DNA from: Phycisphaerae bacterium
GTDB taxonomy: Bacteria > Planctomycetota > Phycisphaerae > UBA1845 > PWPN01
Assembly: GCA_012729395.1 (NCBI GenBank)
Contig: JAAYDF010000029.1
Coordinates: forward strand, 1 to 62,352
Length of the DNA stretch: 62,352 bases
Direction of reading: 5' to 3'
The position numbers and the translations under genes were made by a program. Below are positions 3,411 through 61,866 of this stretch, piece after piece. Position 1 is the stretch's first letter. Each line of letters begins with the position of its first letter. Below the pieces are notes generated by a model. That model saw only the letters and a program-made list of their open reading frames with translations, had not been told where the DNA came from and made no database searches.

Positions 3411-5135
3411 ATGGAGCTTTCGCATCTGATTGACGTGGCTGCCGGGCGCAAGCCGGCCGACTTGGTCTTCAAGAACGGCTCGTTCGTCAACGTGTTCACC
3501 AATACAATCGAGCAGGCGGACGTGGCGGTTGCCGGGCCGCAGATCGCCGGACTGGGCTCCTACGAGGGGCGTGAGGTGGTCGATCTGCGGGGCGGGATGC
3601 TCTGCCCGGGCTTCATCGACGCCCACGTGCATATCGAGTCATCGATGCTCAGCGTGCCGGAGTTCGCCCGCACCGTGGTGGCCCGGGGCACGACCGCGGT
3701 GGTGGCCGACCCGCATGAGCTGGCGAACGTCATGGGGGCCGAGGGCATCCGCTTCATCCTTCGCAGCAGCAAGTATTGCCCGATCGCGGTCTACGTGATG
3801 CTCTCGAGTTGCGTGCCCGCGTCGCACCTGGAATCGGCGGGTGCCGAGCTCAAGGCGGTGGATTTGCTGCCGTTTCTGAGCGATCCGTGGGTTCGCGGGC
3901 TGGCGGAGATCATGAACTACCCCGGCGTGCTCAGTAAGGATCCCGACGTACTGGACAAGATCCGCATCGTCGGGCGGACGCCGATCGACGGGCACGCGCC
4001 GGGGCTCAGTGGGATGGACCTGTGTGCGTACATCGCGGCTGGCATCCGCAGCGACCACGAGGCCTCGACCTTCGAGGAAGGAGCCGAGAAGCTGCGCCTC
4101 GGCATGCACCTGATGATTCGCGAGGGGTCCGCGGCCCGAAATCTGGACGCTTTGCTGCCGCTGATCACGCCGGAGACTTTGCCGCGCATCATGTTCGTGA
4201 CCGACGACAAGCATGTGGATGACCTGGTGACGGAGGGGCATATCGACGTGATGGTGCGGCGTGCGATCGCGGCGGGGCTGAAGCCGGCGTACGCCGTACG
4301 GGTCGCTTCGTTCAATGCCGCCCGGTACTACGGACTGCACGATCTCGGGGCGATTGGGCCGGGCTACCGGGCGAACCTGACGGTGCTTGAGGATCTCAAG
4401 GGCTGCCGCGTCCTGCGTACCTACAAGGACGGCGAACTCGTTGCCGACGACGGGGCCTGCGTGGCCGTGGACCAGAGCCTCGGACGGCCCCCGATGCGAC
4501 TGCGGTCCAGCATCAACGTACAATGGCTCGAACCGGACAACTTCGTTCTGCCCGTCCCGCCGGGAGCGGAAGGCCGATCCGTACGCATCATCGAGATCAT
4601 TCCCGACCAGTTGACCACCCACGAGCTGCGGGAAACGCCAACCACGCTGGACAATCGCGTCGTCGCCGATGTGCAACGCGACCTGCTCAAAATCGCGGTC
4701 ATCGAGCGGCATTCATCGAGCGGGAACATCGGCATGGGCTTGGTGCGGGGCTTCGGCCTCAAACGCGGAGCAATCGCCAGCAGCGTGGCACACGATGCCC
4801 ACAACCTCATCGTCGTTGGGACCAACGACGCGGATATGCTGGCGGCGGCGGTGCACCTGGTGAAGATTCGCGGCGGCCTGTGTGCCCTGGCCGACGGCAA
4901 GGTGCTGGCCGACCTGCCCCTACCCATCGCCGGGCTGCTCTCCGAAGAGCCGGCCGGGGTGGTCGTCCAACAACTCCAGAAAGTGCGTCAGGCCGCCCGG
5001 TCGCTCGGCTCCCCGCTCTCGCATCCCTTCATGACCCTCGCGTTCATGAGCCTCTCGGTCATCGGCGACCTCAAGCTCACCGACCTCGGCCTGGCGGACG
5101 TGAAGGCGTTCAAGCATGTGGAGTTGTTCGTGTGA
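3411..5135 (+). CDS. ade: Adenine deaminase
   Basis: The 574-residue protein has the full set of AdeC-type amidohydrolase motifs. These are the metal-binding GFIDAHVHIESSM near residue 68, ADPHELANVMG, DGHAPGLSG, SDHEASTFEEGAEKLRLGM and the FVTDDKHVDDL metal ligand. The enzyme deaminates adenine to hypoxanthine in the cytoplasm using a dinuclear metal centre. The ATG at 3411 has GGAGA 5 nt upstream and is preferred over the in-frame TTG at 3399. Length and C-terminal domain are normal for the family. With the XdhC-like and MocA-like genes it suggests adenine to hypoxanthine to xanthine catabolism. Confidence 0.95.
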   Translation: MELSHLIDVAAGRKPADLVFKNGSFVNVFTNTIEQADVAVAGPQIAGLGSYEGREVVDLRGGMLCPGFIDAHVHIESSMLSVPEFARTVVARGTTAVVADPHELANVMGAEGIRFILRSSKYCPIAVYVMLSSCVPASHLESAGAELKAVDLLPFLSDPWVRGLAEIMNYPGVLSKDPDVLDKIRIVGRTPIDGHAPGLSGMDLCAYIAAGIRSDHEASTFEEGAEKLRLGMHLMIREGSAARNLDALLPLITPETLPRIMFVTDDKHVDDLVTEGHIDVMVRRAIAAGLKPAYAVRVASFNAARYYGLHDLGAIGPGYRANLTVLEDLKGCRVLRTYKDGELVADDGACVAVDQSLGRPPMRLRSSINVQWLEPDNFVLPVPPGAEGRSVRIIEIIPDQLTTHELRETPTTLDNRVVADVQRDLLKIAVIERHSSSGNIGMGLVRGFGLKRGAIASSVAHDAHNLIVVGTNDADMLAAAVHLVKIRGGLCALADGKVLADLPLPIAGLLSEEPAGVVVQQLQKVRQAARSLGSPLSHPFMTLAFMSLSVIGDLKLTDLGLADVKAFKHVELFV

Positions 5136-5406
5136 GCCCCCGTCGAGGGAAGATGCCGCCAAGCCGATCACCGGATAAGCCAGCAAACCCGTGTACCAAG
5201 ACGGGTCTGCCGGATCGCTCGCCCGCCTGAGCATGGTGAGCTTCACCGGGTCCACGTTGGCGACGATGGGGCACGACGCCGACACCGTCATCAGCGAGGG
5301 GCTTGCCGCCCGGCGCACCCCGAGACCGCCGAGAGACGCGTAACCGCAGACCGTGCAATCAAAACCGACTTCGGCCTGGCGCGAAAACAAGGTTGCGGTA
5401 TATCTA

Positions 5407-7781: not shown

Positions 7782-7936
7782 GGTATGTTCTCCGTTTGGG
7801 GAAGTGTGAGGGGGGCCGCTGCCCCCGTTGCCGTAAACCTTACCCCCCGTCCCCCTCACACCGCAAGTTACCCTGCCTCCAGCACCATTTTGGGCCGACC
7901 GACGGGGCGGAGCGTGCTGCGGGGTGTCTGTTTATT

Positions 7937-7998
7937 GAGGACCGAGTCAACTTATTGATCGACGTTCCGCTGGTATGACACGAACAGCAACAAGTTGC
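7937..7998. repeat. 24-bp palindromic elements in opposite orientations
   Basis: A forward unit (GAGGACCGAGTCAACTTATT onward, 7937-7960) is followed by an opposite-orientation unit with the perfect palindrome GCAAC-AA-GTTGC at 7987-7998. On the minus strand the latter reads GACCAAGGCAACTTGTTGC, so it is the same family. The same forward-plus-reverse pairing recurs at 51744-51900. Confidence 0.65.
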
Positions 7999-10006: not shown

Positions 10007-11098
10007 TCAGTGTACCTCCGCCGCAAGAAGAGCGGCCACACGACGACAAACCATGGCCGGTGTCAGTTCCCGCAGGCACCGATGGCCATGGGGGCAGTCG
10101 GACAGTCGTTTCAAGTAACATGGCGAACACGGCAAGTCCAGCCGGGCGACCGCATCCGGCCGACGGTAGGGGCCGGTCCGCACCGGACTGGTCGGCCCGT
10201 AGATGGCCACGAGCGGTCGGCCCAACGCCGCCGCCAAGTGCATCGGGCCGGTGTCGTTCATCACCACCACCGACGCCCCGGCCACCAGAGCGATCAGTTC
10301 CCGCAAGTTTGTCCGGCCGGCCAGATTCACCACATCCCCGCCCGACAGATTCGCCACCTCCGCGGCCGCCTCGACCTCGTCGGGGGCACCGGCCAGCACC
10401 ACCGCCAACCCATGCTCATTCCGCAGACTGCGGGCCACCTCGGCAAAGTGCCCGACAGGCCAACGCTTCGTCTCCCAACGAGTGCCCGGAGCCAGCAGTG
10501 CATAACCGCGACCCGGTCCGATCCCCCCCGCCGCCAACCACTCGGCAACGACCCTTCGGGAACTGGCATCAACCGGCAACCTGAACTGAATGGGCACATC
10601 CGCGAAACCCAGCAGCCGCCCCGCCTGGTAGTTACGATCCACCGCGTGCCGCTCGCCCCGCGACTCACGCATCGGCCGCGTATAGAAAACCCAGCCAAAC
10701 TCCCGTGCCCGGGCAAAGCCCATGCGAACCGCGGCCCCACTGGCCAGCGAAAGGAAACCGCTGCGAAACAAACCCTGTAAGTCCAGAGCCAAATCAAACC
10801 GCCGACCGTTCAACTCCCGGACAAACGCGGCAAACTCGCAGGTCACCCGCCAGCTTTGCCCCAGGCGGCCAAACCGACGACGATCGAACAGGACGATTTC
10901 GTCGAGCTCCGGGTGCCCTTCCAGCAAACCTGCGCAGGCCGTCGAGACCAGCCAACTGATCCGCGCATGCGGGAAACGCTGCCGCAGACCGTGCAGCACC
11001 GGCAACGCGTGAATCACGTCGCCGAACGAACTCGGCTTGATGATCAGGATCCGCCGAAAATCACGCGGAACCATGCCGTCAAGTCCAGCCAACTCCAT
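10007..11098 (-). CDS. Glycosyltransferase family 9 (heptosyltransferase-like)
   Basis: The 363-residue protein has the GT9 layout: an N-terminal Rossmann strand with IKPSSFGDVIHALPVLHGLR, a middle region with ALDLQGLFRSGFL, and a C-terminal nucleotide-sugar domain with LLAPGTRWETKRWP, VMNDTGPMHLAAALGRPLVAIYGPT and a cysteine-rich tail (LPCSPCYLKRLSDCPHG). This matches ADP-heptose:LPS heptosyltransferases, which add heptose to lipid A-core on the inner face of the cytoplasmic membrane. The ATG at 11098 has AGGG 7 nt upstream; ATGs at 11119, 11116 and 11074 are alternatives. The stop is 2 nt before the next gene on this strand. Its donor sugar cannot be read from sequence. Confidence 0.88.
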   Translation of the reverse strand: MELAGLDGMVPRDFRRILIIKPSSFGDVIHALPVLHGLRQRFPHARISWLVSTACAGLLEGHPELDEIVLFDRRRFGRLGQSWRVTCEFAAFVRELNGRRFDLALDLQGLFRSGFLSLASGAAVRMGFARAREFGWVFYTRPMRESRGERHAVDRNYQAGRLLGFADVPIQFRLPVDASSRRVVAEWLAAGGIGPGRGYALLAPGTRWETKRWPVGHFAEVARSLRNEHGLAVVLAGAPDEVEAAAEVANLSGGDVVNLAGRTNLRELIALVAGASVVVMNDTGPMHLAAALGRPLVAIYGPTSPVRTGPYRRPDAVARLDLPCSPCYLKRLSDCPHGHRCLRELTPAMVCRRVAALLAAEVH

Positions 11099-11119
11099 TT
11101 GCCAGCCCTGCCTCATCAT

Positions 11120-11347
11120 CACACAGCCGCCACCCGACCGACAATCCCCGCTCGCAACCCTCAGCCTTTCGCCTTTCGCTCTCAGCCTTCAGCCCTCCGC
11201 ACAACCTCGCCGCTTCGTAGCGGCCGTCGCCTCTGGCGGCCGCTGGGCGGCGATGATGTCCTACTCGCCGGCCGCCTCGGCTCGACTGAGCTCGCCAAAG
11301 TCGGGGGCGGCCGCTACCGAACAATGCCATCCATCGCCGTCATACGA
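11120..11347. repeat. Left copy of a ~228-bp direct repeat flanking the RAYT element
   Basis: This stretch is repeated in the same orientation at 12218-12444 with only about a dozen differences. It contains a GC-rich hairpin core (GTAGCGGCC ... GGGCGGCCGCTAC) of a wider family also seen at 23479 and 61637. Its left edge touches the 5' end of the glycosyltransferase frame. Confidence 0.85.
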
Positions 11348-11364
11348 ACAGGCTCATCAATCTT

Positions 11365-12149
11365 CGAGCCTGAAGGGCTCGTTCCACAAGCCCAGGCCAA
11401 AGGCCTGGGAATGGGATGGCGCCCCCGGGCCGGCCCTGAAGGGGCCGTTCACGTCGCGTCAGTCCCAGACGTACCGTTCATCCCATTCTACCCCGTATCG
11501 CCGCAACCACTCACGCATTTCGTCCTGGAACGATCTCTTGGTGTGGTGTTCCGGTTGCTGCCGGATGTACGCGCTTACCGCCTCGATACCGGACTGGCCG
11601 ACCGAGAAGACGGCGTGTCCCGCCTGCCAGTGGAACCGTTCCGCCAGACCCCGTCTCTGGTTCACCCACAAAGACGAGGTGGATTTGATCTTGCCGACGG
11701 CGTCCGCCATGGTGATCGTCCGTCCGAGCTGAAACAGCATGTGGACGTGGTCCGCCGTGCCCCCGACGAGCAACGATTGACAACCCAAATGGTTGGCCGT
11801 TCCTCCAAGAACCGCGAACAACTCATCCCGCCACGCATCGAGAAGGACCGGTTGGCGGTTCTTCGTTGAGAACACTGCATGAAGGTACACTCTGGATAAG
11901 GACTGCGGCACGGGACGCTCCGAGACTCCTAACCATCCGGTCGTCTTCATCCTCCCTGGCCAGGATTTGTCTGGTTCGTACGAGGTCAGCCTACACAGGT
12001 CTTGCCCCGCAACATATTACCTCACCGTTTGGCTGGCCACCTCGCTCCACAGGGCCGAGCGTGAACGGCCCCTTCAGGGCCGTCGGAGAGGATGGCGTCG
12101 CTTTCCCAGGCCTTCGACCTGGGCTGGTGGAACGAGCCCTTCAGGCTCG
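11365..12149. mobile_element. RAYT transposon-like unit with inverted triple-hairpin ends
   Basis: The left end (11365-11453) and right end (12060-12149) are inverted copies of one module of three hairpins: CGAGCC-TGAA-GGGCTCG, CCCAGGCC-AAA-GGCCTGGG and GGCCC-TGAA-GGGGCC. The transposase gene lies between them and stops 6 nt from the left module. This is the arrangement described for REP-associated tyrosine transposases and their REP/REPIN substrates. The ends are near identical and the gene is intact, so it may have been active recently. The whole unit sits inside a 228-bp direct repeat, far longer than any normal target duplication. Confidence 0.82.
11459..11911 (-). CDS. REP-associated tyrosine transposase (RAYT, Y1/HUH superfamily, IS200-like)
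   Basis: A GTG start at 11911 (GGAG 6 nt upstream) gives 150 residues beginning VPQSLSRVYLHAVFSTKNR, the typical N-terminus of TnpA-REP proteins; the frame runs on upstream but without homology. The HUH metal motif is present as TADHVHMLFQLG, followed by MADAVGKIKSTSSLWVN and a C-terminal AYIRQQPEHH where the catalytic tyrosine sits. Such proteins nick and rejoin single-stranded REP hairpins. All expected motifs are intact and the gene lies between matching inverted hairpin modules, so it is probably functional. It likely created or mobilised the hairpin families in the region. Confidence 0.9.
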   Translation of the reverse strand: MPQSLSRVYLHAVFSTKNRQPVLLDAWRDELFAVLGGTANHLGCQSLLVGGTADHVHMLFQLGRTITMADAVGKIKSTSSLWVNQRRGLAERFHWQAGHAVFSVGQSGIEAVSAYIRQQPEHHTKRSFQDEMREWLRRYGVEWDERYVWD

Positions 12150-12217
12150 GGGAGCCTGCGGCTTCGCCTTGGCGGGTGGGATTCCAACCCTTGCCCTGCT
12201 CGGCCTCGCCCTGTGTC

Positions 12218-12444
12218 CACACAGCCGCCACCCGACCGACAATCCCCGCCCGCACCCCCCAGCCTTTCGCCTTTCGCTCTCAGCCTTCAGCCCTCCGCAC
12301 AACCTCGCCGCTTCGTAGCGGCCGTCGCCTCTGGCGGCCGCTGGGCGGCGATGATGTCCTACTCGCCGGCCGCCACGGCTCGACTGAGCTCGCCAAAGTC
12401 GGGGCGGCCGCTACCGAAAAACACCATCCATCGCCGTCGTATGA
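12218..12444. repeat. Right copy of the ~228-bp direct repeat flanking the RAYT element
   Basis: It is the same sequence and orientation as 11120-11347, ending 24 bp past the stop of the alcohol dehydrogenase gene. With the inverted hairpin module at 12060-12149 it fills the gene-free stretch 11912-12468; I see no other feature there. Confidence 0.85.
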
Positions 12445-12468: not shown

Positions 12469-13737
12469 TCAGCATGGCCCCACAAATGCCACCTTGATGA
12501 CCCCCGCCTGGCGCCGAATGGCCAGGGTGGCGAACGCTTCTCGGTATTGGTCCAGGCGGAAGCGGTGGGTCAATAGGCCGCTCAGGTCCAGCCGCTTGTC
12601 TCGCAGCAGATCGAAGACCACCTCGTAGGTGTGCCGTTTTCCGCCCTGCCAATTCTCGAACGCCCGGCCGTTGGCACCCACCAGCGTCAACTCGTCCAGC
12701 CACAACGGGGCCGTGTCCACCAGACCGATCTGAGAGGTTCCGACCTCTACCACCGTGCCGCCGGACCGGGCGTACTTCATCGCGTCGGTCAGGCTCTGCC
12801 CGCTGCCGACGCAGTCGTAGACCAGGTCGAAGCCGCCCTGAAACGCCTGGTGACCGAACTTCGACGGCACGACCAAAGCGCCGACCAAGGCGGCCACCTT
12901 GCCGTAACGCACCGCCTGTGAATCCGATCGCCTCGTGATCACCACCTCGTCGGCCCCGTACCGCCGCAACTGCTCGGCCTGCAGGTCGTGCCGGGCGAGC
13001 CCCACAAGCCGGCACCGCAGACCCAACGCCCGGATCGACGCCACCACCCCAATTCCCACCAGCCCCGCGCCCAGGACCAACACCGTCTCGCCATCCGCCG
13101 GCGGCCGACGCAGCACCGCGTGCAACGCTCCCGCCACCGGATCCACCAGCACCGCCTGGGAGTCATCCACGTCGTCGGGCACCCGGTACAACTGCGACTC
13201 GTGGGCCACGAAGTACGGCGCCCAGGTTCCGCCGGTGAAGTTGTTCCAGCCGATCATCGAGCCGACCGGCAACGGGCCGGTGCGGAAGTTCTGGCAGAGG
13301 GTGAACCGGCCCGCGGCACACATCGCACACGGCGGGGTGATCTCCCTGACCGCACACGACAACGCCGACTCGACTACCACCCGATCGCCGGGTCGCCACC
13401 CCTTGACGGCCGGCCCCACGGCATCCACCACGCTCACGTTCTCGTGCCCCAGCACGGCCGGAAAACTCGAGATCGTCTGCAGCACCGAGGCAGGGTGATG
13501 ACGCTGGGTCACCGCCGCCAAATCGGTGCCGCAGATGCCACCCAGCAAAGGGCGAAGCCTGACCCAACGCGGCGATGGCAGTGCCGGGACCGGCAACTCC
13601 ACCATGCGCAGCCCGGCCCTGCCCGACCAGAAAACCGCCGGCCGCACCCAGCCCGCGACCTTGCACAACGTCCACCGCACGGGATGCACGTCATACACCA
13701 AGGCAGTCATACGCTCTGAGTGCATAGGATTGGCCAT
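12469..13737 (-). CDS. Zinc-dependent alcohol dehydrogenase (MDR superfamily, threonine-dehydrogenase-like)
   Basis: The 422-residue protein has the catalytic zinc site (GGICGTDLAAV and the GHENV motif), a structural-zinc loop with CAMCAAGRFTLC, and an NAD(P)-binding Rossmann motif VLGAGLVGIGVVASI. The family oxidises alcohols or polyols, or reduces aldehydes, in the cytoplasm; the substrate is not evident. It is longer than the usual ~350 residues because of an extended N-terminus, and ATGs at 13725 or 13710 are possible starts. The gene follows the DUF5009 protein by 45 bp on the same strand and may share its transcript. Confidence 0.85.
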   Translation of the reverse strand: MANPMHSERMTALVYDVHPVRWTLCKVAGWVRPAVFWSGRAGLRMVELPVPALPSPRWVRLRPLLGGICGTDLAAVTQRHHPASVLQTISSFPAVLGHENVSVVDAVGPAVKGWRPGDRVVVESALSCAVREITPPCAMCAAGRFTLCQNFRTGPLPVGSMIGWNNFTGGTWAPYFVAHESQLYRVPDDVDDSQAVLVDPVAGALHAVLRRPPADGETVLVLGAGLVGIGVVASIRALGLRCRLVGLARHDLQAEQLRRYGADEVVITRRSDSQAVRYGKVAALVGALVVPSKFGHQAFQGGFDLVYDCVGSGQSLTDAMKYARSGGTVVEVGTSQIGLVDTAPLWLDELTLVGANGRAFENWQGGKRHTYEVVFDLLRDKRLDLSGLLTHRFRLDQYREAFATLAIRRQAGVIKVAFVGPC

Positions 13738-15022: not shown

Positions 15023-15087
15023 CCCCGAGCACCCCGCCGACACGACGCCCCCGGACCAAAGCGACCCCGCCGCCGTCCCCCGACCAA

Positions 15088-15206
15088 GTCAGCCTGCGAA
15101 TCGAGAACCCCGTCAACTTGTGGATGGAGGGCCAAGTCAGCTTGCGAATCGAGGACCACGTCAACTTGCTGATGGAGGACCACGTCAACTTGTTGATGGC
15201 GGGCCT
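15088..15206 (+). repeat. Array of five 24-bp palindromic units
   Basis: Units begin with GTCAGC or GTCAAC at 15088, 15112, 15136, 15160 and 15184, spaced exactly 24 bp. The best unit carries TCAAC-TT-GTTGA; others have decayed arms. The period is eight codons, so every frame stays open, which explains spurious long frames here. The rest of the 15010-15364 gap (15207-15364) holds only GC-rich sequence with nothing recognisable. Confidence 0.8.
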
Positions 15207-15364
15207 GTAGCGGAGCGGGCGAGCGCTACGAGCCCCGAGCGCGAGCGAGTGGGTCCTGGTGTCGGTGTGGGACCGGCCTGCCCGCCGTGGTGGGCGTCTC
15301 GCCGGGGTCCGGTCGCCGCGAAGGGGTGCCGCGGGTTGCGGCTCTGTGTGCCCCCCGGTCTGCC

Positions 15365-35830: not shown

Positions 35831-35906
35831 CGCCGTCAGTATCGAGCATCGCCGCGAATGGGTCAATTCCGCTGTCAATGCTCGCCCCCGCCGGGCTCAG
35901 AACCCA

Positions 35907-35952
35907 GTCAACTTGTTGATGGCGGACCCAGTCAACTTGTTGATGGGGCCCC
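35907..35952 (+). repeat. Two 24-bp palindromic units
   Basis: GTCAACTTGTTGATGG occurs at 35907 and 35931, exactly 24 bp apart, each with the perfect TCAAC-TT-GTTGA palindrome. They lie between the divergent dehydrogenase and trpA, just before the trpA promoter. Confidence 0.75.
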
Positions 35953-51492: not shown

Positions 51493-51743
51493 GGCATTAC
51501 CTTTCCCTCAACGAACGGACGCCGATGTCATACCCCGGCAGGTGTGCAGGAAGCGGAGCCGTCGTCTGGGTCGGGATCGCAAGTGAGCGGTTTGCCGAGA
51601 TGGGCAGGCGACCGCTTTCTGGCGACCGCGGCTCTGACCAGACGGGGGCGGCTCAGTTGTGGCTTCAAGCGCACGCCCCGAAATTCAGCCCACAGATTGT
51701 AACGCGACGGGTGCCCGTAGCCAAGTGCTCGCGCCCGATCGCT

Positions 51744-51900
51744 GAGGACCGGGTCGACTTGTTGATGGAGAACCGAGTCAACTTGTTGATGGAGGACCGA
51801 GTCAACTTGTTGATGGACGGATCCATGCGTTTGGGACGAACAGCAACAAGTTGCCTTGGTCCTGGTCACGGCCCCCGCAAGTTGCCTTGGTCCTGGTCAG
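51744..51900. repeat. Array of 24-bp palindromic units in both orientations
   Basis: Forward units begin GTCGAC/GTCAAC at 51753, 51777 and 51801 (24-bp spacing), two of them with perfect TCAAC-TT-GTTGA. Reverse units follow, including a perfect GCAAC-AA-GTTGC at 51843-51854 and two CAAGTTGCCTTGGTCCTGGT copies 31 bp apart. The remainder of the gap 51493-52066 before purB shows no gene. Confidence 0.8.
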
Positions 51901-60503: not shown

Positions 60504-60851
60504 CCAACCGCGGGTACGTATTGGGGCACCCGGCGACTGGCTCTTCTGTGCCGGCCTGGAGGCGGTTCGCTCGCATCAGTCACTTGACGGCATGGCGATG
60601 CCGTCGCGTCGGAAGGCGGGCGAGGGCGGAGTCACGGACCAGACGATACGCCCGTCGCCACGCCGCAAGCGACGTGGGTCGGTGACGCAAGCGGCACCGC
60701 TAAACGGTTTGTGAGTCGCCACAGCCTGTCCGCCGTGCTGATGGGGGCGACCGCTGCTGGACAACCCCATCCAGCGCTGTCATACGAAGGATAGGCGCGG
60801 CGTCATCGCTCAGCATGCTTCTCATGGGCGGTGCTGTTAGAATGCACCTGT
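60504..60851. other. 348-bp gene-free region with a single 36-bp repeat unit
   Basis: It contains a hairpin GGCAT-GGCG-ATGCC near 60591 and one unit of the 36-bp family at 60685-60720 (ACGCAAGCGGCACCGCTAAA onward), matching the array at 61759. No gene is recognised. Confidence 0.6.
60838..60843 (+). promoter_or_regulatory. Putative -10 box for a leaderless transcript of the zinc-ribbon gene
   Basis: TAGAAT is followed by 8 nt and then the ATG at 60852; no Shine-Dalgarno is present. Confidence 0.45.
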
Positions 60852-61717: not shown

Positions 61718-61758
61718 GAGTCGGAAAGCGAGTTGGCCCTGTCGCAAGCGACAGGGGG

Positions 61759-61866
61759 CGCCGCAAGCGGCACCGCTAAACGGTTTGTGAGCAACACCGC
61801 ATGCGGCACCGCTAAACGGGCTGCAAGCAACGCCGCACGCGACACCGCTCAACGGGATATGTGAGT
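61759..61866 (+). repeat. Three tandem 36-bp repeat units
   Basis: Units start with the palindrome-bearing CCGCAAGCGG (61761), CCGCATGCGG (61797) and CCGCACGCGA (61833), exactly 36 bp apart, each continuing CACCGCTAAACGGG/T. One further unit lies at 60685-60720. The remaining stretch to 62037 shows no gene. Confidence 0.75.

Follow-up and report, generated by a model that had tools for sequence, protein, structure and literature searches.

Several described systems resemble the locus treated here. Class 3 of the TnpA_Y1 family, for which a place between IS200 transposases and RAYTs has been suggested, occurs mainly in Planctomycetes and Acidobacteria; its conservation extends over about 155 amino acid residues, it has an IS200-like Y...Q signature, and the gene is flanked by several atypical hairpins with a CnGA foot, which are present in multiple copies in the genome (PMC6006769). 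In TIRtrons, the Y1 gene (TIRYT) is placed between long terminal inverted repeats that make up a moderately abundant dispersed family (PMC3733652). In P. fluorescens SBW25, tandem REPIN clusters consist of near-identical flank-REPIN-flank units set apart by a short piece of non-repeated DNA (PMC3116915, Fig. S7).

The locus of the present study belongs to a planctomycete-group assembly (5.74 Mb, 370 contigs) and lies on a contig, C312, that was analyzed at its full length of 62,352 nucleotides and is called the window below. The unit at the center of the locus is like class 3 in its Y128/Q132 signature and in having flanking hairpins with further copies in the genome, but these hairpins form an ordered three-hairpin module with a GAAC foot, and a CnGA is not clearly recognized 5' of them. 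As in a TIRtron, the Y1 gene is flanked by long, dispersed inverted repeats, whereas the unit as a whole is nested within a duplicated REPIN of another family. Two near-identical flank-REPIN-flank units parted by non-repeated DNA recall the SBW25 clusters, although the intervening DNA is here a whole, apparently foreign transposase unit, amounting to 870 bp with its spacers. The core of the direct repeat is like the classical combination of GTAG REP/REPIN and RAYT (class 2, REPtron), with a likely RAYT on contig C138, yet the transposase enclosed by the repeats is a different one. The locus looks less like a new kind of mobile element than like one repeat system placed within another.

Layout of the locus and origin of the transposase unit

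The whole arrangement is held in a 1.35-kb intergenic stretch between a heptosyltransferase-like gene, whose alignment with homologues begins at residue 20, and a zinc-dehydrogenase-like gene. Direct repeat 1 is followed by a 17-nt spacer, the module, the Y1 gene on the minus strand, the inverted module, a 68-nt spacer, and direct repeat 2. The original prediction had described a gene enclosed by inverted three-hairpin modules, the whole being enclosed in turn by a near-identical 228-bp direct repeat, and both parts of this description hold: the modules are 84% identical over 90 nt, and the direct repeats, which are 228 and 227 bp long, are 96% identical, with nine substitutions and one 1-nt indel. 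Other short repeats of the window are a minisatellite family with a 24-bp period (GTCAACTTGTTGATGGAGGACC-like; 7929-7964, 15079-15223, 35874-35949, and 51720-51840) and a 35-36-nt repeat (CCGCAAGCGGCACCGCTAAACGG; 60681-60715 and 61757-61863), three units of which stand in tandem at the second place.

Features of the locus, with positions in the window
Feature	Position	Strand	Remarks
ADP-heptose/LPS heptosyltransferase-like gene, left neighbor	10007..11122	-	TIGR02195; probable start near 11065
Direct repeat copy 1	11120..11347	+	flank 1, GTAG-type REPIN, flank 2
GTAG...CTAC inverted-REP element (REPIN) in direct repeat 1	11217..11317	+	member of dispersed family
17-nt spacer, direct repeat 1 to module	11348..11364	.	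without counterpart after direct repeat 2
Three-hairpin module, downstream of gene	11365..11453	+	hairpins 11365-11381, 11391-11409, 11431-11447
Y1/HUH transposase gene (class-3-like TnpA), ~150 aa	11459..11911	-	PF01797; probable GTG start at 11911
Three-hairpin module, inverted copy upstream of gene	12060..12149	-	hairpins 12133-12149, 12105-12123, 12066-12082
68-nt spacer, module to direct repeat 2	12150..12217	.	second copy sought in genome: none beyond ~20-nt chance-level matches
Direct repeat copy 2	12218..12444	+	96% identical to copy 1
GTAG...CTAC REPIN in direct repeat 2	12315..12414	+	member of dispersed family
Zinc-type alcohol/threonine dehydrogenase-like gene, right neighbor	12469..13737	-	next to heptosyltransferase gene in sister genera

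The open reading frame of the transposase is intact (11459-11950, minus strand), and the real gene is probably shorter, as listed in the table, because the homologues begin at residue 14, which is a GTG here. The protein matches PF01797 with an E-value of 1.3e-23 and carries the HUH motif and the catalytic Tyr of the IS200/IS605-like Y1 superfamily; it also passes the NCBIfam IS200 model (63.8 bits, cut-off 55). In the alignment of homologues, the HUH motif (H68-V-H70), Y128, and Q132 (Y+4) are invariant; the gene of the homologue L069 has an internal stop. A sequence search of solved structures found nothing matching at E 0.001. Identification as a strict RAYT was rejected: the score against the class 2 model NF047646 of NCBIfam is 21.6 bits vs a cut-off of 80, and the gene is not flanked by GTAG/GGAG-footed REPs of its own, the flanking hairpins carrying GAAC/GTTC instead. 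The GTAG elements lie outside the modules of the transposase and match the RAYT of C138. The Tyr+4 Gln signature, the planctomycete and acidobacterial range, and the multi-copy flanking hairpins make the enzyme a likely member of class 3 of the TnpA_Y1 family.

The transposase groups, with 100/100 support, with proteins from other planctomycete families and one Gemmatimonadetes MAG (61-76% identity), and its best homologue within its own order is only about 51% identical. Judging from these sequences, the unit was apparently acquired horizontally, from other planctomycetes. In the sister genera G001, G003, G005, G009, and G012, the heptosyltransferase gene is next to the dehydrogenase gene, with a gap of roughly 40-210 bp that lacks the unit, and the two genes are also close together in G007. 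Because the gene pair adjoins without the unit there, the insertion is recent on the scale of sister genera.

Two dispersed repeat families

Both modules, each about 89 nt long and sharing a perfect terminal segment of 23 nt, fold as three hairpins; on the strand that allows all three of them, z is about −3.5. The order of the hairpins is a GAAC-footed one, CCCAGG..CCTGGG, and another GAAC-footed one. Eleven copies, two of them the inverted ones on either side of the gene, can be aligned over ~88 nt, and their ends are sharply defined, from CGAGCC... to ...CCGTTCA, outside which the flanks are unrelated. Their stems are retained in 96.8% of cells, and only one compensatory pair is seen, the copies being too alike for covariation to prove the folding. 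Elsewhere in the genome the module occurs solo, in about 12 full or partial copies whose flanks are not repeated, and it is thus dispersed on its own, like REPINs. The same hairpin order is found 26-52 nt downstream of the gene at the homologous loci L067-L070, L075, and L162, although the third hairpin was not recovered in all of them; L072 and L073 are similar, at all these loci the hairpins agree with the module in sequence as well as in order, and the module also stands inverted upstream of several homologues. Because the same hairpin order flanks these homologues, the module goes with this clade of transposases; in recognizably related form it borders the gene's closest homologues in other planctomycetes. 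No Rfam family was found for the module or the direct repeat, the single hit being irrelevant and far below the gathering score. Solo modules are not preferentially placed near GTAG elements, since 1 of 12 lies within 500 bp of one vs 6.5% of random positions. At another locus (L040; G000:C108:48507-49460), two modules stand in direct orientation 0.9 kb apart; a transposase was sought between them and is absent, and what they enclose is a repeat resembling the hairpin family of contig C67, so that the pair is another instance of nested REP systems.

The direct repeat belongs to a different system. Its positions 97-226 (~130 nt) are a dispersed family with 54 matches genome-wide, built as GTAGCGGCCG... 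inverted to ...CGGCCGCTAC and followed by a conserved tail, an architecture shared with classical GTAG REPINs. The likely partner of this family is the RAYT on C138, which is bordered on either side by inverted GTAG REPs that are 100% identical and which matches NF047646 with an E-value of 4.7e-21 (75.2 bits, slightly under the cut-off of 80). Other members of the family reach 92% identity with the repeat over about 50 nt only, none of them exceeds 82% across 120 nt or more, and the outer ~65 nt of the repeat are found at this pair only in the genome. It follows from these two observations that the pair stems from a single local duplication rather than from separate insertions of two REPINs. 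No third copy of the whole 228-bp repeat turned up in a search of the genome; likewise, no similarity was detected in a search for a continuation of the duplication past either repeat end. The original prediction had reasoned that the flanking pair would be a coincidence if copies of the repeat were common and unlinked to the RAYT; this is true of the REPIN core, but not of the unique outer 65 nt or of the 96% identity of the pair. Duplication of this family also takes place where no transposase is present. At C207:9972-10411, two copies of a REPIN of this family follow each other in tandem, flanks included (209 nt, 91%), and on C142 a direct repeat with a REPIN of the same family encloses an ordinary host gene. 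Such local duplication was seen at 1 of 27 sampled GTAG loci, in addition to the C207 case.

Direct repeats spanning Y1 genes

The frequency of this geometry was surveyed by defining a spanning direct repeat as one of at least 100 bp and 80% identity. Such a repeat was present at 12 of the 55 Y1 loci surveyed, including the window, and in this genome at 3 of the 11 Y1 genes, namely those of C67 (399 bp, 94%), C199 (397 bp, 94%), and the window. The earlier belief that REP/RAYT units are not known to sit in long direct duplications is contradicted by these counts. The controls, whose chief weakness is that REP density is not matched, gave 0 of 763 positions for the remainder of these loci. In 400 kb of this genome sampled as background, 15 of 1580 gene-sized positions were spanned by such a repeat within 3 kb, and by this figure the arrangement in the window is not due to chance.

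Arrays of their own hairpins around transposases are known from REPtrons. At most of the loci that were read, the spanning repeat consists of such arrays of the transposase's own hairpin module and not of target DNA, and the spanning repeats at L195 (G000:C199) and L032/L186 (G000:C67) are large hairpin arrays of their own families. The excess of spanning repeats at Y1 genes is largely explained by REP arrays. The exceptions are the window, where the repeat contains a REPIN of another family, and L127, where the Y1 gene stands between 85% identical copies 2.4 kb apart (L127:2555-2786 and 4957-5203) that resemble coding sequence and, judged by eye, the beginning of a gene for glycyl-tRNA synthetase. 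A further Y1 locus is L194 (478-3012; G000:C317:39813-42344), where a RAYT-like Y1 transposase with inverted hairpins lies in frame inside purH. Its open frame of 844 aa has PurH parts on both sides; purH is uninterrupted in the sister genera, and no second purH was found in this genome. L194 may represent a core gene that tolerates an insertion in its reading frame.

Origin of the nested arrangement

We consider it probable that a tandem REPIN cluster was entered by the horizontally acquired, class-3-like TnpA unit and that two REP-type systems have thereby become nested. A GTAG REPIN with its flanks, 228 bp in all, would first have occupied the space separating the heptosyltransferase gene from the dehydrogenase gene, and its local duplication would have produced a two-unit tandem cluster with a short non-repeated spacer. 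The foreign Y1 gene with its inverted modules would then have been inserted into this spacer, pushing the repeat copies 1.1 kb apart. We infer this order of events, with the tandem pair preceding the unit, from the arrangement of the parts. Entry might have proceeded by single-strand insertion of the IS200/IS605 kind, in which single-stranded DNA is presumably cleaved and resealed by TnpA at the terminal hairpins, whose foot is GAAC on the strand where it lies 5' to the hairpin. If TnpA also mobilizes the module, the dispersal of solo modules would follow. The direct repeats would be bystanders. Among the genomes compared, no allele that has the tandem pair but lacks the unit was seen. Of the three options offered by the original prediction, a jump into a two-copy REP cluster is thus the best supported, although the cluster proves to be of a different REP family from the unit.

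Another of those options was that the insertion itself made the duplication, the TnpA unit or replication repair having copied a 228-bp target in the manner of a very long target-site duplication. The position of the repeats around the unit, the excess of spanning repeats at Y1 genes, and the restriction of the outer 65 nt to this pair would all fit. The repeats of a composite transposon or a long target-site duplication should, however, abut the unit, and here they are parted from the modules by the non-repeated 17- and 68-nt spacers; solo modules lack repeated flanks, and the repeats at most other loci read are the hairpin modules of the transposases themselves. Insertions of the IS200/IS605 type, moreover, are not known to produce target duplications, and we regard this origin as unlikely. 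A similarly low likelihood is assigned to the tandem duplication of a segment comprising repeat and unit, with later loss of the second unit. It would leave the observed order of repeat, unit, and repeat, and something comparable exists at L075 (2649-4037), where a succession of repeat, module, gene, and module is directly followed by a 96% identical copy without the gene, like a tandem of autonomous and non-autonomous elements. In the window, however, no remnant of a second module or gene follows 12444, and the sequences that follow repeats 1 and 2 are unlike. The remaining option, in which the unit entered, or can leave, as a circle with one 228-bp copy through homologous recombination between the repeats, agrees with the geometry, which is that of an integrated circle, and a repeat of 228 bp at 96% identity would in principle suffice for RecA-type recombination; because the repeat contains a resident REPIN family, however, any circle that came in must have been derived from this very genome, and neither a circle nor a single-copy locus was seen. 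We hold this route to be quite improbable. A false join in the metagenome-assembled genome, caused by a repeat longer than short reads, could be suspected because the REPIN family is often found at contig ends and hence breaks assemblies. The copies can nevertheless be distinguished at ten places, and the outer genes are true neighbors in five sister genera, which a false join would not restore, so that an artefact is barely conceivable.

The entry of the unit into a preexisting REPIN cluster nevertheless leaves its neat placement between the two copies unexplained. Landing exactly there would be an unlikely single event, given the rarity of local duplication among GTAG loci, and the excess of spanning repeats at Y1 genes, both in the survey and in this genome, is not what a pure coincidence of two systems predicts. 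A more active role, in which class-3-like Y1 transposases promote local direct duplications of a few hundred bp around themselves, would account for both that excess and the growth of REP arrays around Y1 genes, but we hold it to be rather doubtful. If the nested arrangement did arise by entry into the cluster, the window would be a clear case of two REP systems with different transposases stacked in one intergenic region, one of them a poorly studied class-3-like unit acquired from outside its family. If, on the other hand, Y1 transposases do cause flanking duplications, this would provide a mechanism for the still debated formation of REP arrays beside RAYT genes, and it is in this possible link between Y1 genes and local duplication that the interest of the locus lies.
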